41,946 nt of DNA, taken from contig JAKEFB010000143.1 of NCBI GenBank assembly GCA_022616275.1, forward strand, positions 1 through 41,946. The letters run 5' to 3'. This document shows, piece by piece, positions 3,337 to 33,411 of this stretch. Made by a program: the position numbers and the translations under genes. The stretch is from Chloroflexota bacterium (GTDB taxonomy: Bacteria; Chloroflexota; Anaerolineae; Promineifilales; Promineifilaceae). Position 1 is the first letter of the stretch. Each line of letters begins with the position of its first letter. A model generated the notes under the pieces. It was not told where the DNA came from. It saw nothing but the letters and a program-made list of their open reading frames with translations, and searched no databases.

Positions 3337-4557
3337 ATGAGGACAGTTATAGGCGTTTTTGACGAAATGATGCATGCCCGCGCCGCCGTCCAGGACCTGG
3401 TTAATGCCGGCATTCCCCGGGACGACATCAGCCTGATCGCCAGCGACCCGAACAAGGAATATGCCACCACTCTGGGCGAGGAAGTAGACGACGCGGCCGA
3501 AGGCGCTCTGGAAGGCGCTGTAGCCGGTGGTCTGCTGGGCGGTCTGGCCGGCGCCTTGCTGGGCCTGAGCGCCTTTGTCATTCCCGGGCTGGGTCCCATC
3601 ATTGCTGCTGGCCCGGTTGCCGCCGCCCTGATTGGGGCTGGCGTCGGCGCGGCTGGTGGCGGCCTGGTGGGCGCCCTCATTGGCTGGGGGCTCTCCGAGG
3701 AAGAGGCCGGCTATTACGCTGAGGCGATCCGCCGGGGTAGTACCCTGGTGGCCGTCCGTGTGGACGAAGACCAGGTAGACACGGCCGTAGAAGTGCTGAA
3801 CCGCCACAATCCGGTGGATGTTGACCGGCAGGCGGATTTCTGGCGGACCGAGGAAAGCTGGATCGGCTACGATCCCAACACACCGGCCTATACCCGCGAC
3901 GAAGTCCAGGATTACCGTAACCGATATTACAACTATGCCGGTATCGGCATGGCCGAAGACATCTACGAAGATTACTCGGTTTACGAGCCAGGCTTCCGCC
4001 GCCATTACGACATAGCCTACGCCGCCGCCGGTTATCCCTATTCGCAATATGACCCGGCTTACCGCTACGGCTATAGCCTGGCCACCGACGCCCGTTACCG
4101 CGATTACACCGATTGGGAAACATTGGAGCCGATGGCCCGCCGCGATTGGGAAGACATGGCCCAAGGCGCCTGGGAAGATTTCAAGGATGCCATCCGCCAC
4201 GCCTGGAACGAGACGAAGCAAGCCGTCCGCGAGACTTTCGACACCGACTACGACTATGCCGAGTATGAAGACGACTTCCGCCGCCACTATGACACCGTCT
4301 ATGGTGTCTATGACTACACCTACACGCGGTATGAACCGGCTTACCGCTACGGCTATCTCCTGGCTACTGACGAGCGCTATGCTGATTACGATGACTGGGA
4401 GACGCTGGAGCCGATAGCCCATCGCGATTGGGACGACGCCTACGACGGGCCGTGGGAGGACTTCAAAGAGGCCGTGCGCCACGCCTGGAACCGGGTGACC
4501 GGCGCGACCGAACGAGCCTGGGATGAAGCGACCGATACGTTTGACGACCGGCCGTAA
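3337..4557 (+). CDS. General stress 17M-like (YflT domain) protein with C-terminal repeats
   Basis: 406 aa. Residues 1-45 (MRTVIGVFDE..., then LVNAGIPRDDISLIASD) match the start of the YflT/general stress protein 17M-like domain. A glycine/alanine-rich hydrophobic hairpin follows at about 55-120, then a second small alpha/beta half (VAVRVDEDQVDTAVEVL, about 140-155). The C-terminal half holds two tandem copies, about 95 residues each, of a tyrosine/tryptophan-rich acidic module: FRRHYD, YxPAYRYGYxLATDxRYxDY, DWETLEP, WEDFKxAxRHAWN. Similar modules occur in Deinococcus and cyanobacterial stress proteins (from memory). The function is unknown; a membrane-interacting stress role is inferred. A strong RBS supports the start. 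Confidence 0.9.
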   Translation: MRTVIGVFDEMMHARAAVQDLVNAGIPRDDISLIASDPNKEYATTLGEEVDDAAEGALEGAVAGGLLGGLAGALLGLSAFVIPGLGPIIAAGPVAAALIGAGVGAAGGGLVGALIGWGLSEEEAGYYAEAIRRGSTLVAVRVDEDQVDTAVEVLNRHNPVDVDRQADFWRTEESWIGYDPNTPAYTRDEVQDYRNRYYNYAGIGMAEDIYEDYSVYEPGFRRHYDIAYAAAGYPYSQYDPAYRYGYSLATDARYRDYTDWETLEPMARRDWEDMAQGAWEDFKDAIRHAWNETKQAVRETFDTDYDYAEYEDDFRRHYDTVYGVYDYTYTRYEPAYRYGYLLATDERYADYDDWETLEPIAHRDWDDAYDGPWEDFKEAVRHAWNRVTGATERAWDEATDTFDDRP

Positions 4558-13120: not shown

Positions 13121-15016
13121 TCACTGATTTAGGTACTGGAAGTGGGCCTCCAGGTATGCCAGCCAGACCTTTTTCAGACCCACGCGGATCCGGCTATCCA
13201 GCGGCCGGACCTGTGACTGGTAAACCTGGGTCTCCAACCCCAACTCAGGAATCAGGACCACGTCCTGGTTGCCGCGCCGATCCACGATAATCCCTTCGCC
13301 TTGCCAGCCGGGGTGCTGCAGCAGGTAGACCAGCGTCCAATGCTCGTTGGCCCGCCGCTCGGCCCAGCGCACGCTGCCAGTTACGGCGTCGGCCGCGCCG
13401 ATGCGGGCCAGGATGGCCTGGCTGTCCAGCAACGGCGCGCCGCGCAGGTAAGCCCGCAGTTGCTGGTGGGCGACCAGGTCCAGGTAGCGGCGCAGCGGGC
13501 TGGTACATTGGACGTACAGCTCCATCCCCAGCCCGGCGTGTGGTCCGGGAGCGGTGACCTGCTGGCTGGGCTTGAGCGTGCGGCGGAGGGCGAAGCCCTG
13601 AGAGGGGGAGAGAGGGTGGTTCGATTTTGGATTTTCGATTTTAAATTTTGGATTGGGTGGTGAATCCAAAATCGGCAATCCAAAATCCAAATTTTCAAAG
13701 GGGGGATTTTGGATGGTGTAGGGCAGGGGGATGTTCTGGGCGAGGGCCAGGCGGGCGACGGCTTCGCCGGCCATGAGCATCGCTTCCCGGACCAGGTCGC
13801 GGCTGCGCAGCGGCGGCAGGGGGCGAATGACTACCTCCTCGTCTATGACCCGTATCTTGACTTCCGGCAGGCCAATCTCAATGGCCCCGTTGCCCAGCCG
13901 CCGGGCCTGGTATCGCTGGGCCAGCCGCAGTAGCCCGGCCAGCAGCGGTTCGTCCAGGCGGCCTTCCGCCTCTTCGTAGCTCAGGCGGGTGACACGGACC
14001 CAACTGGGCGTAATCTCTAACTCTCCAATCTCTCCTTCCGGCCCCAGCGCCAGACCAAAGGAAAGGGCCGGCGAGACCTCGTCCAGGCCCAGCGCCAGCC
14101 GGGGCGTGGCCTCGGCCGGCAAGATGGGAACTGTCCCTTCCGGCAGATAGAGGTTGGCTCCCCGCGCCTGCGCTTCTAGGTCGGCCGGGCTGTCCGGCGG
14201 CACCAGCGCAGCCACGTCGGCAATGTGGACCCACAGCCGGCCGCCGTCCAGGCTCAGCGCGTCGTCGGGGTCGCGGTTGCCTTCGTCGTCAATGGCCAGG
14301 GCCAGCAGGTGAGTCAAATCGCGCCGCTCTTCGGCCGGCAGCGTTGGCAGGGCCACGGCCGGCGGCGCGACCGGCAGGCCAGCCCGTTCCGGGTAAGGGT
14401 TCACGGCCGGGGTCCAATAACCCACCTTGAGTAAAAAATCGTGGGCGTTTTCCTGGCTTTCTTCCTGGTTCAGGGCGCGCAGCACCCGGCTGTGGCTGGC
14501 CCGCCCCACGGCCAGCGCCGCCACCTCTTCCAGGTACGGCCGGTCCTCCGGCCGGTAGTGGTCGGCGGCGATTCCGGCCAGGAAGGCGGCCCAGGCCCGT
14601 TCCTCGGCCGCCCGCGCCTGGCGCGCCGCCTGCTCCCGGGCCACCGCTTCCGGCGAATGGGCCGCGATCCGCTCCGGCGAGCCGCTGAAGTAGAGGCCGT
14701 CGGCCACCAGATCCCAGGTCGCCCAGGCCGCAGCCGGCGTATAGCGGCCATAAATCAACTCGGCCAGTTCAGCCAGGCTGGCGCTCTCCCCGGCCAGCAA
14801 CTCCCAGGCCGTCTGCACGTCGCCGGCCGGAGGCCGCAGCGCCGCCAGGCTGTCCAGCGGGCCGGGATGGAGCAGGGTCACATCCTTGGGGCGGACGCTC
14901 AGGCGCTGGCCGCCCTCAATTTCCAGTTCAACCTTTTTCTCGCCAACCTGGAGAATGCGCCCCGGCCGGTTCTTGTAGAGGACCAGGCTGCCAGGGTAAA
15001 GAGAGTCGTTCGCCAT
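13121..15016 (-). CDS. RNase II/R family 3'-5' exoribonuclease with in-frame repeat insertion
   Basis: 631 aa from the ATG at 15016, which overlaps the lplA stop (TGATG); a TTG one codon upstream is less likely. The N-terminal KOW-like barrel (residues 3-50) resembles cyanobacterial-type RNase II. The RNB catalytic centre is IDDEGNRDPDDALSL (about 242-256), with the metal-binding aspartates intact, followed by SRDLVREAMLMAGE and AGLGMELYVQCTSPLRRYLD. Between YTIQNPP and ALRRTLKPSQ, residues about 435-470 are low complexity and encoded by AATCCAAAATCC-type repeat DNA that looks inserted. All family motifs remain in frame, so activity is plausible. It is the third gene of MFS-lplA-RNase and degrades RNA processively 3' to 5'. 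Confidence 0.9.
   Translation of the reverse strand: MANDSLYPGSLVLYKNRPGRILQVGEKKVELEIEGGQRLSVRPKDVTLLHPGPLDSLAALRPPAGDVQTAWELLAGESASLAELAELIYGRYTPAAAWATWDLVADGLYFSGSPERIAAHSPEAVAREQAARQARAAEERAWAAFLAGIAADHYRPEDRPYLEEVAALAVGRASHSRVLRALNQEESQENAHDFLLKVGYWTPAVNPYPERAGLPVAPPAVALPTLPAEERRDLTHLLALAIDDEGNRDPDDALSLDGGRLWVHIADVAALVPPDSPADLEAQARGANLYLPEGTVPILPAEATPRLALGLDEVSPALSFGLALGPEGEIGELEITPSWVRVTRLSYEEAEGRLDEPLLAGLLRLAQRYQARRLGNGAIEIGLPEVKIRVIDEEVVIRPLPPLRSRDLVREAMLMAGEAVARLALAQNIPLPYTIQNPPFENLDFGLPILDSPPNPKFKIENPKSNHPLSPSQGFALRRTLKPSQQVTAPGPHAGLGMELYVQCTSPLRRYLDLVAHQQLRAYLRGAPLLDSQAILARIGAADAVTGSVRWAERRANEHWTLVYLLQHPGWQGEGIIVDRRGNQDVVLIPELGLETQVYQSQVRPLDSRIRVGLKKVWLAYLEAHFQYLNQ
13615..13716. 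repeat. AATCCAAAATCC inverted repeat lying in frame inside the RNase gene
   Basis: GATTTTGGATT units on the left (13622-13652) are mirrored by AATCCAAAATCGG and AATCCAAAATCC on the right (13662-13690), then a further GATTTTGGAT. It is AT-rich in a GC-rich gene and keeps the minus-strand frame open. Exact borders are uncertain. Confidence 0.7.
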
Positions 15017-22777: not shown

Positions 22778-23203
22778 TCAGGCAGGGAGTGGGACGGTTT
22801 GCGCCGCCGCTTCTAGCATCAAATCAGCCAGCAATGTGTAAGCGGCCGTCCACGCCGCTTCTACCTCAGCCGTAAACCTGTCCCCCAGCCCCTGGTTCAA
22901 TGTCCACAGCAGAGCGCTACCAACTGTGTTGTAATGGGCTGGTTGCACCCCGTAGGTTGCGTGTCGCTGGCCGAGGTGCTGAACGGCGGCAATGATCGTT
23001 TCCGGTTGCTGTAAGTCGCGCACGACGAGGGTCAGGGTGGCCATCAATTTTTTGCCCTGTTCGTCCATGTTACTACGGAATAATGGACGTAATGAGGGGT
23101 CCAGGGTAAACAGGCGGGCATAAAAAAGCGCGGCCGCCTGGTCGGCCATCGGGGCCACCAGGGCAAATGTTTCTTGTACGAGTTCGATTTGTTTCGGGGT
23201 CAT
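22778..23203 (-). CDS. Single-domain globin (Vitreoscilla haemoglobin-like)
   Basis: 141 aa from the second ATG (23203), which has AAGGAG at 7-nt spacing; the ATG at 23209 is too close. Full-length globin of the flavohaemoglobin class without reductase: Tyr B10 in FYARLF (about 28), distal Gln E7 in MDEQGKKLM (49), proximal His F8 in LGQRHATYGV (81). Tyr/Gln distal pairs suit oxygen binding and nitric oxide detoxification with a separate reductase. A SARP-type site and -10 box (23312-23345) point at it, with a large hairpin in the presumed leader. Confidence 0.93.
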   Translation of the reverse strand: MTPKQIELVQETFALVAPMADQAAALFYARLFTLDPSLRPLFRSNMDEQGKKLMATLTLVVRDLQQPETIIAAVQHLGQRHATYGVQPAHYNTVGSALLWTLNQGLGDRFTAEVEAAWTAAYTLLADLMLEAAAQTVPLPA

Positions 23204-23230
23204 CTTCATTCTCCTTGTTCATAGTTTGAT

Positions 23231-23311: not shown

Positions 23312-23345
23312 ACCATACCAGGCTATCGTTTCAACATCGTTTCAA
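23312..23345 (-). promoter_or_regulatory. SARP-type operator and -10 box facing the globin
   Basis: On the minus strand: TTGAAACGA (23345-23337), 2 bp, TTGAAACGA (23334-23326), exactly 8 bp, then TATGGT (23317-23312). An 11-bp repeat period and 8 bp to the -10 are the known SARP promoter layout. The same design is at 28177-28221. Confidence 0.6.
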
Positions 23346-23347
23346 GC

Positions 23348-23353
23348 TATAAT
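23348..23353 (+). promoter_or_regulatory. -10 box of the SARP gene, probably leaderless
   Basis: Perfect TATAAT ending 6 bp before the GTG at 23360, so transcription would begin at or near the start codon. No SD is present. The tandem repeats at 23326-23345 overlap the -35 position. Confidence 0.55.
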
Positions 23354-23359
23354 GAACCA

Positions 23360-26300
23360 GTGCAACAGCTACACCTGGCCCTGTTGGGCACGTTCCATCT
23401 AATGACAACCGGCGGCGCCACTATCTCCCTGGCGACGGACAAGGTGCGTGGCTTGCTGGCTTACCTGGCGGTGGAAGCGGATCGCCCCCACCGGCGGGAA
23501 GCTTTGGCCGGGCTGTTCTGGCCGGATATGCCCGATCAGCAGGCGCGCAGTAATTTGCGCCTGTCTTTACACCGGTTACGGCAGGCGGTAGATGAGATTG
23601 TGCCCGGCGTGAGTGACACCATGCTCACGGTGAACCGGGATGTGGTGCAGTTACACACGGCCGGGCTGGCGCGGGATCATCAGCTTTTCCAACAGGCCCT
23701 GTTGGCCTGTGATAGACACGATCACCCGGAACTGGAAAGCTGCGCGGAATGTTTACAGCAATTGGAAACCGCGGCCGCGCTCTATCGCGGTGAATTTCTG
23801 GCCGGGTTTTCCCTCGATGAGGGCGAGACGTTCGAGGATTGGCTACTGGTGCAACGAGAGTTCTTGCAGCAAAAAGCGTTGCTGGCCCTGCATACCTTGA
23901 CCGATATGCAGGCCGGACGGGGCGACGTCGAAGCCGCTCTTCATTATGCCCAACGCCAGATGGCCCTCGATCCGTTTTATGAACCGGCCTACCAGCAGGC
24001 GATGCGCGTCCAGGCCTTACACGGTCTGCGGCCGCAAGCCCTCGCCCTTTACGAACAATGCCGGCAACTCCTCGCCGATGAGCTGGGTGTGGAACCTGCC
24101 CCAGAAACGACCCATCTCTGGCAACAGATCAAAGATGGGAGTTTACAGTCCATTCCGGCCCGCCCCGCCCAAACCGAAATCCACCATTTCCCCACGCCGC
24201 TTACTCCCTTTATTGGTCGCCAGCGCGAACTGAACGAGATCGTGACCACCCTGGCCAACCCGGCCTGCCGTGTGCTCACCTTGCTGGGGCCGGGGGGCAT
24301 GGGCAAAACGCGACTCAGCCTGCAAGTTGGGCATCAGCTTGCCGGCGGCACCAGGCTGTATCGCGATGGCGTCTATTTCATCCCCTTAGCTACCGTCACC
24401 GAAGAGGACCTGCTGGTGACAACCATCGCCCAGCGGTTAGGGTTGCGCCTGGAAGAGCAGACCAGCCCTCGCCACCAATTGCTGGCCTATCTGCGCGACA
24501 AAGAGATGCTCCTGGTCTGTGACAACTTTGAGCAAATCGTCAGCGGTGCCCCTTTCGTGGCCGAAATGGTGGCGACTGCCCCCCAGGTACAAATTTTGCT
24601 GACCTCTCGCGAACCGCTCAACATCCAGGCCGAGTGGCGGCAACTGATTCGGGGGCTGGATGTGACCGGGGAAAGTTCGGAAGCGGTGGAACTGTTCCAG
24701 CGTAGCGCCCGGCGCATGGTTCCCAATTTCCAACTGCGACCCGGTGATGGGGCGACGGTGCTGGAACTGAGCCGGCTGGTGGATGGGATGCCGCTGGCGC
24801 TGGAGATCGCGGCCGCCTGGGTGCGGGTCATGGAACCGGCGGCCATCTTGCGCGAAACCAAAAAGAGCCTCGATTTCCTGGCTTCTCCTTTACAAGATAT
24901 GCCCGAACGGCACCAGAGCGTGCGGGCGGTGCTGGCCCAAACGTGGCAACTGCTGGCTACTCATCTACAAGGGGTTCTGGCCCGTATGGCCCTGTTCCCG
25001 GCCGGGTTTACCCTGGAAGCGGCGCTGGCCATTCTGCCCGACGTGACCATGCTGGACATCGCCACCCTGCTCGATAAATCGCTCCTGCACAGGCTTCCCC
25101 AGGGGCGGTACGAAATGCACGAACTGTTACGCCAGTTTGCCCTTGGCCAACCCCAACCCCAGCGGTACAGTTTTCAGGAGAGGTATAGCCATTACTACCT
25201 GAGCTTGATGGGACAGCAGGCGGAAACTTTACGTGGCCGCCATCCTCAATCCGCCATCACCATCACCCAGGCTGAATTAGAACACATCCGCCAGGCCTGG
25301 CAATGGGCCGTGGAGCAGCAACAGGTGGACCTGCTTCGCGCGGCCATGTCCGGGCTGGCCCGTTTCTACCATCTGGCCGGGCTATTCCAGGAGGCCCAAC
25401 AACGGTTACTGGCGACCATTCAGGCGGTACAATCCTGGCCTGTCGCCCCCGGAGCCACTTTGTTGCTCTGTGAACTGCACGCCGGGGCTTCCGATTTTCT
25501 GGGCCAGAGCGGGCAATATGAAGCCGCTATCCGGCACGCCCAGGCGGCCCGGCAACTGGCTGAATCGGCGGCGGCGGCCGACCTGCTGGCCCAGACGTAC
25601 ACTCTGGAAGGGGAATGGCGCCGCCATCTGAGCCAGTTTGACGAGGCCAAAAAGGCTTTAGCGCAGGCGTTGCACTTTTATACCGCCCCTGCCCCCACTG
25701 GCGAGGTGGCCCACGTTCTGAACGAGATTGGTTTTGTCCACCTGAAACAGAGCCAGTACACGGCCGCGCTGACCGTTTTTGCCCGGGCCCGGCAAATTTA
25801 CGAAGCGGTCGGCGATCAAACCGAAATATCAACCACGCTGGGAAACATCGGTTATGTGTATCAGCTCAAGGCTGAGTATCCCCAGGCCCTGGATCATCTA
25901 CGCCAGGCGCTGGCTATCGCCGAGACCATCGGTTACAAGCAGGGCATCGTCAAACATACCCTGGGGCTGGGCACTGTTTACCTGGATCAGGGTGACATCG
26001 CGGCCGCGCGCAAGGCCTATGAAAAAACCTTACAAATGGCTCAGGGGTTGGGGTACGTGCGGGGCATCATCAACAGCCTGATCCAGATGGGTAGCACTTA
26101 CGTCAGCAAGGGGCAACTTCAAGAAGCCGGGCAATGGTTTCAGAAAGCCAGAACACAGGCAGAAGCGGCCGGTTTGCGCGATTTGATCGCCCTGGCGATT
26201 GGTAAACAGGCCACCATTCTGGCCTTGCACGGTGAGAATCAGGCCGCCATCGCCCATTACGAACAGGCCATTCAGTTGTGCCGGGAACTCAACGATCAAG

Positions 26301-27160
26301 CCGAATTAGCCCGGAATTTGAGTCACCTGGGCAATATCTATTTGCGCCTGGGCGATCCCGAGCAGGCGTGCCAGCATTTTGAGGCTGGCCTGGCCGTGGC
26401 CCAGACTACGGGAGCGCAGCAGATCGTTGCCAACACCATGCTGGCGCTCGGCAATGCTTATAAGCGACTGGGGCAATATGATCGGGCCTTAGCCTATTAC
26501 CAGCAATTGCTTACCCTCAGCCAGACACTGGGGCTTCAACCCAGCATCGCCAATAGTATCGGTTCCATCGGGCTCGTTCATTTTGAACAAGGCAACTATG
26601 AAGCGGCGCGGCAGGCCTATGAGCAGGCCTTGCAGCTAAACCAGGAATTGGGGAAAGCGTTATCAGAAGGGCTCTGGTGGCTGAACATCGGACAGGTGGA
26701 CATGGTGATGGACCGGTACGAATCCGCTTTACAAAATACACAACAGGCGATCACCCGGTTTCGAGCGTTGGCCAATCAACGCTATACCGCCATGGGGTTG
26801 TTACAACAAGCCCAAATCTTGTTCCGGCAGGGGCAGTCAGAATCGGCCTTTCTGGTGCTGACTGAAGCTTTACAAAGTAGCGAGCCTTTTCAAGAAAAAC
26901 AGGTGCTTTTTGAAGGCTACCTCCTCCGGGCCCGCTTGTGGTCTGCACTTGGCGAACAGGGTAAAGCGCGGGCACAGCTTGATACAATGTTAGGCCACTA
27001 TGGCAGCCCGGCCGAGCAAGCCCAGCTACATTATGATTTATGGCAGTTGACAGGAGACGTGAGCAGCAAAGAGACGGCCACGACGTTATACCAGCAATTA
27101 TTGGCCCAAACGCCCAATCATCAATACCGGCAACATTTAAAGGCCTTATTGGCAGACTGA
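23360..27160 (+). CDS. Large SARP-family regulator (wHTH-BTAD-NB-ARC-TPR)
   Basis: 1266 aa from the GTG at 23360; an ATG at 23252 is in frame but sits in a hairpin before the -10 box. Residues 1-95: OmpR-like winged helix of SARP type (LALLGTFHL, LLAYLAVEADRPHRREALAGLFWP, ARSNLRLSLHRLRQAV). About 100-250: BTAD domain (YEPAYQQAMRVQALHG, LYEQCRQLLADELGVEPAPET). NB-ARC with P-loop GPGGMGKTRLS near 310 and LLVCDNFEQI near 380. From about 640 onward, at least ten TPR-like repeats. This is the AfsR-like STAND architecture: DNA binding gated by ATP and a signal sensed by the repeats. Probable targets are its neighbours (globin and secreted protein). Confidence 0.92.
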   Translation: MQQLHLALLGTFHLMTTGGATISLATDKVRGLLAYLAVEADRPHRREALAGLFWPDMPDQQARSNLRLSLHRLRQAVDEIVPGVSDTMLTVNRDVVQLHTAGLARDHQLFQQALLACDRHDHPELESCAECLQQLETAAALYRGEFLAGFSLDEGETFEDWLLVQREFLQQKALLALHTLTDMQAGRGDVEAALHYAQRQMALDPFYEPAYQQAMRVQALHGLRPQALALYEQCRQLLADELGVEPAPETTHLWQQIKDGSLQSIPARPAQTEIHHFPTPLTPFIGRQRELNEIVTTLANPACRVLTLLGPGGMGKTRLSLQVGHQLAGGTRLYRDGVYFIPLATVTEEDLLVTTIAQRLGLRLEEQTSPRHQLLAYLRDKEMLLVCDNFEQIVSGAPFVAEMVATAPQVQILLTSREPLNIQAEWRQLIRGLDVTGESSEAVELFQRSARRMVPNFQLRPGDGATVLELSRLVDGMPLALEIAAAWVRVMEPAAILRETKKSLDFLASPLQDMPERHQSVRAVLAQTWQLLATHLQGVLARMALFPAGFTLEAALAILPDVTMLDIATLLDKSLLHRLPQGRYEMHELLRQFALGQPQPQRYSFQERYSHYYLSLMGQQAETLRGRHPQSAITITQAELEHIRQAWQWAVEQQQVDLLRAAMSGLARFYHLAGLFQEAQQRLLATIQAVQSWPVAPGATLLLCELHAGASDFLGQSGQYEAAIRHAQAARQLAESAAAADLLAQTYTLEGEWRRHLSQFDEAKKALAQALHFYTAPAPTGEVAHVLNEIGFVHLKQSQYTAALTVFARARQIYEAVGDQTEISTTLGNIGYVYQLKAEYPQALDHLRQALAIAETIGYKQGIVKHTLGLGTVYLDQGDIAAARKAYEKTLQMAQGLGYVRGIINSLIQMGSTYVSKGQLQEAGQWFQKARTQAEAAGLRDLIALAIGKQATILALHGENQAAIAHYEQAIQLCRELNDQAELARNLSHLGNIYLRLGDPEQACQHFEAGLAVAQTTGAQQIVANTMLALGNAYKRLGQYDRALAYYQQLLTLSQTLGLQPSIANSIGSIGLVHFEQGNYEAARQAYEQALQLNQELGKALSEGLWWLNIGQVDMVMDRYESALQNTQQAITRFRALANQRYTAMGLLQQAQILFRQGQSESAFLVLTEALQSSEPFQEKQVLFEGYLLRARLWSALGEQGKARAQLDTMLGHYGSPAEQAQLHYDLWQLTGDVSSKETATTLYQQLLAQTPNHQYRQHLKALLAD

Positions 27161-27168
27161 CCGTTTTC

Positions 27169-27213
27169 GCGAAAAAGCGCCTGTTGGCTCTAAGGCCAAC
27201 AAGCGCTTTTCGC
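27169..27213 (+). terminator. Terminator hairpin after the SARP gene
   Basis: GCGAAAAAGCGCCTGTTGGC pairs with GCCAACAAGCGCTTTTCGC with one mismatch and one bulge, followed by TTTTACC. Lies between convergent genes. Confidence 0.75.
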
Positions 27214-27254
27214 TTTTACCGGTTTACTACCGGCGCTAAACCTGAACGCGGGCC

Positions 27255-28115
27255 TTATCCGGCGCAGGGATCGGCCGCCAGGGGTAGCTCGGCCAACGCC
27301 TCGAAAGAAACGGCCTGGCCCGGGACAGAATCAATAATGTCGAAGAGGACAATGTCGCCACCGCCACCGCCACCTGCCGGCCGCCCCTGGGCGCGACTGT
27401 CGCCCACTGCCTGCCATAAGCCGTTTATTTGCTGGTAGCGCGTGCCGTAAACAACCACGGCCGCTTCCCCGGCCAGGCACAGCGTGGCGCCGCTCTCGAC
27501 CACAATGCGGTCGTCGCTATCCAGTTGGATGGTGCCCACGGCCGGGCCGTCGTTCAAGACCAGCAGGTCGGCCGAGAAATCGTCTAACTGCCCGTCGCCA
27601 TCGGTGTCCACCTGGGCCGCCGGGGCCATCACCCCGGCCACGTACTCCCGTTGCCATTCGCCGCTGGCCATAAAAACAGTGGCACTAGCATCAGTCTGGA
27701 ATTGGAAGTCGGGACCACTACCGCCCCCGGCCGGTTTGGCTTCCACCTGGACGTTGCCGGTTGCCTGCCATTGGCCGTTCACCTTCTGGTAATGGACCCC
27801 GTCCAGCACGGCCTTCTCTTCACTGCTCGTCCACACGATGTGGCCGCTCTGCAGCTTAATCTTGCTATCGCTGTCCAGGAAGATCACGCCGCTGGCGGTG
27901 TTGTCACTGTTGACGGCAAAATCGGCCGAAAAGAAATCGAGGCTGCCATCGCCATCGGTGTCAATTCGTTGCTGAGGGGCATGGATAAAGATCAGTTGCA
28001 GGCCGATAGCCTGGGCCGATTGGGCCAGCCACAAGGCCATGAACACAGCCAGGAGGCTGAGCCAGCGCATCGGCTGGGTCCGGATACGACGAATGAGAGT
28101 ACTCTGCTGAAACAT
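27255..28115 (-). CDS. Secreted protein with two DTDGDG modules
   Basis: 286 aa. Signal peptide: basic start, hydrophobic WLSLLAVFMALWLAQSAQA, cleavage likely after residue 36; M16 is an alternative start, but AAGGAAAA precedes the ATG at 28115. The mature protein has two modules of about 115 residues, each with a calcium-loop motif (DTDGDGSLDFFSADF and DTDGDGQLDDFSADL), then IxLDSDxxIxxxSG, YQxxNGxWQAxG, and a Pro/Gly-rich linker (PAGGGSG, PAGGGGGG). The loops resemble EF-hand/thrombospondin-3 calcium sites. No enzyme motif is seen. Exported, perhaps calcium-dependent binding or structural. A SARP-type operator lies upstream. Confidence 0.82.
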   Translation of the reverse strand: MFQQSTLIRRIRTQPMRWLSLLAVFMALWLAQSAQAIGLQLIFIHAPQQRIDTDGDGSLDFFSADFAVNSDNTASGVIFLDSDSKIKLQSGHIVWTSSEEKAVLDGVHYQKVNGQWQATGNVQVEAKPAGGGSGPDFQFQTDASATVFMASGEWQREYVAGVMAPAAQVDTDGDGQLDDFSADLLVLNDGPAVGTIQLDSDDRIVVESGATLCLAGEAAVVVYGTRYQQINGLWQAVGDSRAQGRPAGGGGGGDIVLFDIIDSVPGQAVSFEALAELPLAADPCAG

Positions 28116-28176
28116 GATAGATTTTCCTTATACTGTGATTTGGTTTGAATGGATACCATCTGTATCCTCACAGTCG

Positions 28177-28221
28177 AGTGTAGCAATCTATCGTTTCAAG
28201 TTCGTTTCAACATCGTTACCC
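28177..28221 (-). promoter_or_regulatory. SARP-type operator and -10 box of the secreted protein gene
   Basis: On the minus strand: a degenerate GTAACGA unit (28219-28213), TTGAAACGA (28210-28202), 2 bp, TTGAAACGA (28199-28191), exactly 8 bp, TACACT (28182-28177). The predicted leader is about 55 nt to the ATG at 28115. Confidence 0.6.
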
Positions 28222-29443: not shown

Positions 29444-29476
29444 AACCTCCCGGAGGTTGCCAACCTCCGGGAGGTT
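29444..29476. repeat. AACCTCCCGGAGGTT element (copy 3)
   Basis: AACCTCCCGGAGGTT (29444-29458), spacer GCC, then its complement (29462-29476). It lies just upstream of the Rrf2 -35 region, between divergent genes. Confidence 0.85.
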
Positions 29477-32647: not shown

Positions 32648-33379
32648 ATGATTGAAGTGAGTCAACTGAGCAAGTCTTTTGGCCCGGTGAAGGCGGTGCA
32701 GAACGTTTCTTTCACCGCGCCTAATGGGTTGATCACCGGGCTGCTGGGACCGAATGGCGCAGGCAAGAGCACGACGATGCGCCTGATTGCCGGCGTATTA
32801 CGGCCGGAAAGCGGCCAGGCGACCATTGACGGCCACGACACGGCCGTCCAGACCCTGGCCGCCCAGCAGCGGATCGGTATCTTGCCTGACAAGCGCGGGC
32901 TGTACCACCGGCTGACGGCCCGGGAGAACGTCCGCTACTTCGGCCGGCTGCGTGGGCTGAAAGGGGAGTCGCTGGAACAGGAAATTGACGGGTTGCTCCA
33001 ATTGCTGGACATGGCCGACATCGCCGACCGGCGCGCCGAGGGCTTTTCCACTGGGCAGCAGATCAAGGTGGCCATTGCCCGCGCCCTGGTCCACCGGCCG
33101 CAAAACGTCATGCTCGACGAGCCGACGACCGGGCTGGACGTGATGAGCACGCGAGCCATGCGCGAAGTCATCCGCCGGCTGCGGGATGAGGGGAAGTGCC
33201 TGCTCTTTTCCAGCCACGTCATGCAGGAAGTGGCCATGCTGTGCGACAACATCGTCGTCATTGCCCACGGCCGGGTGGTCGCCCAGGGTTCCCCTGACGC
33301 CTTGAGGCAGCAGACGGGCCAGGAAAACCTGGAGGATGCCTTCGTGGCCGTGATTGGCACGCCGGAAGGATTAAAATAA
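32648..33379 (+). CDS. ABC exporter ATPase, NatA type
   Basis: 243 aa from the ATG at 32648, with GGAG 9 nt upstream. Walker A GPNGAGKST (34-42), GILPDKRGLYHRLTARENV (Q-loop region), signature FSTGQQIKVAIARAL, Walker B VMLDEPTTGLD, H-loop SSHVMQEV. The sequence is closest to ATPases of sodium- or drug-exporting ABC-2 systems such as NatAB. It energises the two permeases at 33430 and 35148. Unlike the LytTR fusion upstream, all catalytic motifs are intact. The stop codon touches a palindromic element. Confidence 0.93.
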   Translation: MIEVSQLSKSFGPVKAVQNVSFTAPNGLITGLLGPNGAGKSTTMRLIAGVLRPESGQATIDGHDTAVQTLAAQQRIGILPDKRGLYHRLTARENVRYFGRLRGLKGESLEQEIDGLLQLLDMADIADRRAEGFSTGQQIKVAIARALVHRPQNVMLDEPTTGLDVMSTRAMREVIRRLRDEGKCLLFSSHVMQEVAMLCDNIVVIAHGRVVAQGSPDALRQQTGQENLEDAFVAVIGTPEGLK

Positions 33380-33411
33380 ACCTCCCGGAGGTTCCCAACC
33401 TCCGGGAGGTT
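33379..33411. repeat. AACCTCCCGGAGGTT element (copy 4)
   Basis: AACCTCCCGGAGGTT (33379-33393), CCC, complement (33397-33411). Its first base is the last base of the natA stop; the next gene starts 18 bp further on. It could attenuate transcription between natA and the permease. Confidence 0.85.

Follow-up and report, generated by a model that had tools for sequence, protein, structure and literature searches.

SARPs are known mainly as activators of antibiotic synthesis in Streptomyces. The SARP considered here is encoded by a Chloroflexota bacterium (assembly GCA_022616275.1, contig JAKEFB010000143.1), in a stretch of 41,946 nt (positions 1 to 41,946, forward strand) that was analysed as a whole and is referred to below as the window. 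Its gene lies between two tandem repeats, or boxes, one preceding a globin gene and the other a gene for a putative exported protein. It is highly probable that this SARP activates both genes, together with further exported-protein genes elsewhere in the genome, in trans through the box, and that the specificity word of the box is read mainly by residues 88 and 92 of the regulator.

The closest described system is AfsR of Streptomyces coelicolor. According to the available part of the account (PMC10936776), its afs box consists of two 11-bp direct repeats extending from -40 to -19, and in each repeat it is the first 8 bp that are contacted. Two SARP domains lie side by side on these tandem units and sigma region 4 rests on them, not on a -35 element, with the polymerase held on the -10; on the template strand, R92 touches T-38 and T88 touches G-36, which are unit positions 3 and 5 in the numbering used here. 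By the positions given there, 28 bp separate the first unit from the -10. The NOD and TPR parts of AfsR inhibit its SARP domain. PimR, a SARP-LAL regulator of Streptomyces natalensis, recognises heptamer repeats separated by 4-bp spacers, again a period of 11 bp, and at least two monomers bind co-operatively (PMC5930380, available part). SARP sites built as 11-bp direct repeats are thus already known from both accounts. PimR differs from the system described here in its heptamer (CGGCAAG), in a main operator that stays clear of the -35 region and in its target, another antibiotic-synthesis regulator. Among the papers outside subscription listed by a literature search, judged by title and opening of the abstract, none dealt with SARP sites in Chloroflexota or with a SARP-controlled globin.

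The window SARP shares with AfsR the order SARP-NOD-TPR and the arginine at position 92, and its boxes share the 11-bp period and the 28-bp distance from the first unit to the -10. It differs in its half-site (TTGAAACG), in the leucine found at position 88 (Thr in AfsR), in its length of 1266 aa, in its Chloroflexota host and in its candidate targets, a globin and exported proteins.

The regulator, its boxes and the candidate targets

The SARP gene (23360..27160, plus strand) encodes an N-terminal DNA-binding domain followed by a BTAD domain (PF03704, 2.2e-22), an NB-ARC domain of the STAND type (PF00931, 7.6e-9) and several TPR matches. No helix-turn-helix model was matched in the N-terminal domain by a Pfam scan at E <= 0.001; with phmmer, residues 9-258 align to AfsR and residues 3-76 to EmbR. 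The NCBIfam model for AfsR matches residues 3-595 at 5.2e-37, a score far below the cut-off of that model. As the first-pass annotation had claimed, the only SARP gene lies between the two boxes: it is the sole BTAD match on the contig that carries the window (C43).

The word TTGAAACGA occurs exactly four times in the window, always on the minus strand, against a mean of 0.20 (largest value 2) in dinucleotide shuffles. The four copies form two tandem pairs with an 11-bp period (two bases between units), and a TANNNT element lies 8 bp behind each pair, as had been described for both sites; the tandem form did not appear in the shuffles even when three mismatches were allowed. In the globin promoter, the half-sites occupy 23337..23345 and, 11 bp downstream, 23326..23334, and the spacer TAGCCTGG leads to the putative -10 TATGGT (23312..23317), a geometry that returns in the test over 156 loci reported below. 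In the promoter of the exported-protein gene they occupy 28202..28210 and 28191..28199, and the spacer TAGATTGC leads to TACACT (28177..28182), read as the -10. Both spacers start with TAG, which had been taken as a feature of the site; this was abandoned, since the only other exact site in the genome has the spacer TGGATGGT. A weak third unit, GGGTAACGA, lies upstream of the exported-protein box (28213..28221, minus strand) and is echoed by AGGCAACGA on contig C22.

The inferred globin target (22778..23209, minus strand, 143 aa) is a single-domain protein (Pfam Globin, 6.4e-18) whose sequence relatives are single-domain bacterial haemoglobins (PDB 3wfw, 1.6e-31; 3s1i, 2.7e-25; 1vhb, 6.2e-16) and the globin domain of flavohaemoglobins. 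A reductase domain was not found, the match to the flavohaemoglobin model covering only positions 2-138 of 399 (93 bits, cut-off 432). The protein had been called a haem sensor, a description that the data do not support.

The second inferred target (27255..28115, minus strand, 286 aa) starts with a hydrophobic segment recognised by eye and is a tandem duplication of one module, each copy with a DTDGDG motif. Its earlier description as a calcium-type protein is based on DxDxDG motifs; no Pfam family exceeded its cut-off, and the best EF-hand match reached 15.3 bits (cut-off 25.9). An AlphaFold model built from three sequences (mean pLDDT 45) was too weak and was not used.

A search of the whole genome for the motif, which had been suggested as a check, showed it to be rare, and its five best places all precede genes. 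The exact tandem has three occurrences, the pair already described and one at C22:29290. When the 8-base core plus -10 was searched, five places carried no more than one mismatch, and the sixth-best (on C109) had three; the latter was taken as chance, a reversed-pattern control giving two. The site at C22:29290 precedes a paralogue of the exported protein (77% identical). On contig C56, the gene behind the site at 3593 encodes a protein of 2032 aa that matches fn3, and the gene behind the site at 13497 encodes one of 842 aa that matches GEVED and has, by eye, a HEFGH motif; both proteins appear to start with a hydrophobic segment, again as judged by eye, and both sites deviate at unit position 9. 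Since the five sites are spread over three contigs and C56 holds no SARP match, the candidate regulon would act in trans, and the earlier picture of a local regulon was too narrow. The three contigs agree in tetranucleotide composition (r 0.91-0.94 among them, 0.68-0.75 to two relatives).

Two further kinds of repeats were observed. The palindrome AACCTCC(C/G)GGAGGTT is dispersed in seven copies over the window, mostly in pairs (23229-23245/23281-23297, 10854, 29444-29476 and 33379-33411), and one pair falls within the globin leader. The leader of the exported-protein gene contains the inverted repeat GGATAC-N5-GTATCC (28151-28167), nearly kept in the C22 paralogue.

Conservation in other genera

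The comparison set comprised 53 genomes of the same family, in which SARP-type matches range from 0 to 39 per genome. With up to two mismatches, the box occurs in five of them, own genome included. In three of the four others (G032, G041 and G044) it immediately adjoins a SARP gene, and the near-match of the fourth (G051), on a 3-kb locus lacking a SARP, was taken as chance. The SARP of G044 is 80% identical to that of the window, and its gene is preceded by two copies of TTGAAACG. Beyond the own genome, G041 alone among the 53 yielded a homologue of the exported protein (34% identity, E 9.4e-7); it stands behind the box, divergent from the SARP gene, an arrangement that supports the proposed link between the two. 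The comparison with related genomes, also suggested at the outset, thus places the box in other genera beside SARP genes, before this homologue and before globins.

The globins of the family (30 genes in 16 of the 53 genomes; upstream sequence under 180 bp for three of them) point in the same direction. Eight are divergent from a SARP gene, and seven of these have a box scoring 14-16; in the eighth (G004) the box is the same and its -10 is TATAAA, which the -10 rule missed. Two further boxed globins stand apart from the SARP gene. In G001, the globin lies about 10 kb from the SARP and its box, TTGTCACG/TTGTGACG, is the word of the SARP-globin pairs of its relatives. In G044, it lies in an 18-kb stretch with no SARP match and has the box TTGAAACG/TTGTAACG. 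A second globin of G044 carries a different word, TTCGGACG twice. This SARP-globin link, which the first-pass annotation had proposed for the window, appears to recur in five genera (g1, g2, g9, g21 and g23), without being universal. Repeated TTCGGACG boxes, another SARP word, were likewise noticed in G001-G006 and at G044:C64.

It has also been considered that the sites are chance or duplicated sequence devoid of regulatory function. The exported-protein promoters of C43 and C22 are in fact paralogous, as duplication would have it, but the globin and exported-protein promoters have the box and the -10 in common while their flanks differ, and the shuffles, the reversed-pattern controls and the occurrence of the box in other genera contradict this explanation, whose probability is practically negligible.

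Box geometry and the repeated word

The general form of the site was examined at 156 SARP loci, in the region from -400 to +60 relative to the start of the DNA-binding domain. They comprise 27 canonical SARPs of the own genome (30 BTAD matches, from which L012, L039 and L040 were set aside as not canonical) and 129 further SARPs of the family, drawn from 30 loci and 100 rows among the matches listed after leaving out own-genome rows, the last rows of the listing and G012:C275 (too little upstream sequence). Close relatives, G001-G006 among them, contribute similar though distinct strings, so that the counts are not fully independent. The scan looked for a repeated 9-mer (at least 8 of 9 positions alike) followed by TANNNT, over periods of 6-20 and spacers of 0-19. 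A period of 11 with a spacer of 8-9 was found at 44-46 of the 156 loci on the strand that runs divergently from the SARP gene, while other periods at those spacers gave 0-1. On the SARP strand, a period of 11 was spread diffusely over all spacers (4-15 loci, highest at 16) with no such peak.

When repeat and core letters were scored together, 72 of the 156 loci reached a score of at least 12 on the divergent strand, compared with 0.2 in a first-order Markov null (ten rounds) and none on the same strand; at a score of at least 11 the figures were 86, 1.2 and 4, respectively. Thirteen of the 27 own-genome SARPs reach a score of 11. Since the boxes face away from the SARP gene, the divergent gene would be the target. 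A third unit was rejected as a general feature, being present at five of 72 sites at -11 and at equally many at -12. The same fate befell the idea that SARP boxes drive mostly exported proteins: a hydrophobic start was seen in 27 of 68 boxed and in 15 of 67 unboxed divergent open reading frames, a difference that is suggestive only, given a crude rule and uncertain starts and operons.

The half-sites read TNNNNACG, and the aligned units take the form T-NNNN-ACG-N-T, in which NNNN differs among SARPs and is usually repeated within a site. With only T, ACG and TA...T fixed, the pattern matches the own genome at 14 sites, its reversed form at none. NNNN was identical in both units at 68 of 140 distinct family sites among those listed (one of 150 strings was left out) and alike in at least three of four bases at 91, the corresponding values between sites being 1.9% and 8.4%. 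Among 146 listed sites from outside the family, in other families of the class, it was identical at 57 and alike in at least three bases at 80 (1.4% and 8.3% between sites), so that the repeated word is real beyond the family. Unit positions 9-11 were discarded as part of the word, being identical in both units at only two of the 140 sites.

The promoter of the SARP gene itself bears on a second alternative. The gene very likely starts at GTG 23360, because a TATAAT (23348..23353, plus strand) ends 6 nt upstream and homologues align from this point; the longest reading frame, from ATG 23252, was rejected for these reasons. With this spacing, which is the same in G044, G032 and G041, the SARP mRNA would be leaderless, and a TATAAT-like element followed after 5-8 nt by an in-frame start was found in 40 of the 156 genes. 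The box ends 2 bp from this TATAAT in the window and in G044; in G032 the distance is 6 bp. If a pair of SARPs were bound there, the spacer and the -35 region of this promoter would be covered, a geometry on which negative autoregulation of the SARP, already raised in the first-pass annotation, is conceivable, with a chance that we place slightly short of even. Over the 72 boxed loci, the distance from the box to a TATAAT-like element on the SARP strand is uneven, with seven loci at 16 bp and four each at 5, 18, 34 and 38 bp, all of them small numbers.

It could accordingly be argued that the sites are mainly operators of the SARP gene, the globin and exported-protein genes being incidental. 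The box does abut the TATAAT of an apparently leaderless SARP gene both in the own genome and in G044, and in the latter the first reading frame of at least 100 aa on the other side begins about 690 bp away. Nevertheless, boxes with a score of at least 12 point away from the SARP at 72 loci and towards it at none, four of the five own-genome sites are not at the SARP promoter, and two globins apart from the SARP gene carry boxes; this explanation is therefore very improbable.

Several further observations were made. G007, the genome with 39 SARP matches, holds at least seven sites with TCGTAACG twice, a larger candidate SARP regulon. Among the 134 clustered open reading frames divergent from SARPs, 20 belong to a family of about 70 aa with the consensus Y.SYLLRLWR..WRA.LEN..TGE..GFA.LE.L..FL (L014, L029, L034, L067, L069, L079, L083, L086, L097, L099, L104, L111, L122, L126, L135, L143, L153, L159, L170 and L184; also L046:1068). 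No match above cut-off was found for it in Pfam (three members) or NCBIfam (two members), nor a PDB relative with a 12-member profile. The TTGAAACG box of G032 also precedes a member of this family, which is possibly a partner of these SARPs. A second recurring divergent partner of 140-188 aa was found at L084, L098, L115, L127 and L167, three of its four boxed members having GTGTCACG. The locus L009 (G000:C292) contains a repeat-spacer array resembling CRISPR with the repeat end CGCCCCCGCGATTGAAAC.

Residues covarying with the word and the proposed mechanism

The DNA-binding domains were aligned with AfsR, which was numbered by counting along its chain, a count with which the residues named in PMC10936776 fit. 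In 45 non-redundant boxed SARPs, the leading residue-base pairs were 45-2, 92-3, 92-2, 88-5 and 88-4 (reached in 0 to 14 of 400 permutations), the pair 92-3 ranking second among all. A G at base 3 accompanies R92 in 19 of 20 SARPs, and other residues at position 92 in six of 25. In a tree-based count of changes over the 72 SARPs, made with the helix masked and treating branches as equal, 88-5 took the top rank among 220 pairs (P 1.4e-7, with 13 shared branches) and 92-3 the sixth (P 0.003); the pairs 75-4, 84-2 and 71-4 also rank high, and no contact is named for them in the available part of the AfsR account. Residues 88 and 92 played no part in finding the sites, yet the covariation agrees with the base contacts seen by cryo-EM in AfsR, so far as the available part of PMC10936776 gives them. 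Altogether, the covariation is good evidence that the adjacent SARP would read the adjacent box, while the specificity code is a sketch and not finished.

These data bear on a third alternative, in which TTGAAACGA is read by some other regulator, be it a SARP paralogue or a factor of another kind, and the SARP gene merely adjoins the site. The genome holds 27 canonical SARPs, and two of the five sites, those of C56, differ at unit position 9 and lie on a contig with no SARP match, both points in favour of this alternative. That position, however, is outside the 8 bases contacted in AfsR in the part of that account available, the word adjoins a SARP gene in four genera, and many SARPs have an adjacent word of their own that covaries with the AfsR contact residues. 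A foreign reader of the word is consequently improbable. The rarity of the word, its AfsR-like geometry and its conservation beside SARP genes instead support the initial proposal that one SARP would serve both promoters through a SARP-type box.

Activation by the window SARP has to be weighed against several points. The own genome (G000) is an 8.53-Mb bin with 5.5% contamination, and the C43 and C22 exported-protein promoters, being paralogous, are not independent of each other. At 84 of the 156 loci no box reaches a score of 12, and the same-strand count is the fairer control because the core letters came from the same loci. Only 10 of the 30 globins (11 with that of G004) have a box scoring at least 14. 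The other 19, two of them with weak scores (11 and 12), include the three of G041, which have no box, most second copies and the two further globins of the own genome, to one of which the weak score of 12 belongs. The pairing in G001 rests on the word of its relatives, because a box is lacking at its SARP gene (score 4). Nor do the four TTGAAACG SARPs form a single clade when a quick tree is drawn. A Mantel comparison of DNA-binding domain and word gave a weak correlation for the non-redundant set (r 0.10, reached in 90 of 2000 permutations); for all 72 SARPs it gave r 0.28, reached in 0 of 500.

From the sites and their covariation we infer that a pair of SARP molecules would bind side by side on the tandem half-sites T-TGAA-ACG, 11 bp apart, over the -35 region, and would recruit RNA polymerase to the -10 located 8 bp downstream, in a sigma adaptation like that of AfsR. 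The four bases of each half-site would constitute the specificity word, read mainly by the recognition-helix residues 88 (Leu) and 92 (Arg), and the NB-ARC/TPR half presumably senses the signal. Five genes would be activated in trans in this manner: the divergent globin gene, that of the DTDGDG exported protein, its C22 paralogue and the two exported-protein genes of C56. The predicted partners of this SARP are in this way a globin and secreted proteins, and not antibiotics.

On a wider scale, it is reasonably probable that a large share of the many orphan AfsR-type STAND regulators of this class use a private word, T-NNNN-ACG repeated 11 bp apart in a divergent promoter and read by residues 88 and 92, and that one of them governs a recurrent globin circuit. 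Working from sequence only, the comparison of 156 regulators defines how the site is laid out and which part of it is the specificity word in another phylum; since the word can be read beside the regulator gene and then looked up throughout the genome, the regulons of hundreds of regulators in uncultured bacteria would become predictable from sequence alone. If this holds, the globin circuit would point to nitric oxide or oxygen as the signal of a STAND-type activator, and the control targets and signals of these large regulators would become open to direct tests in organisms represented mostly by metagenome bins.

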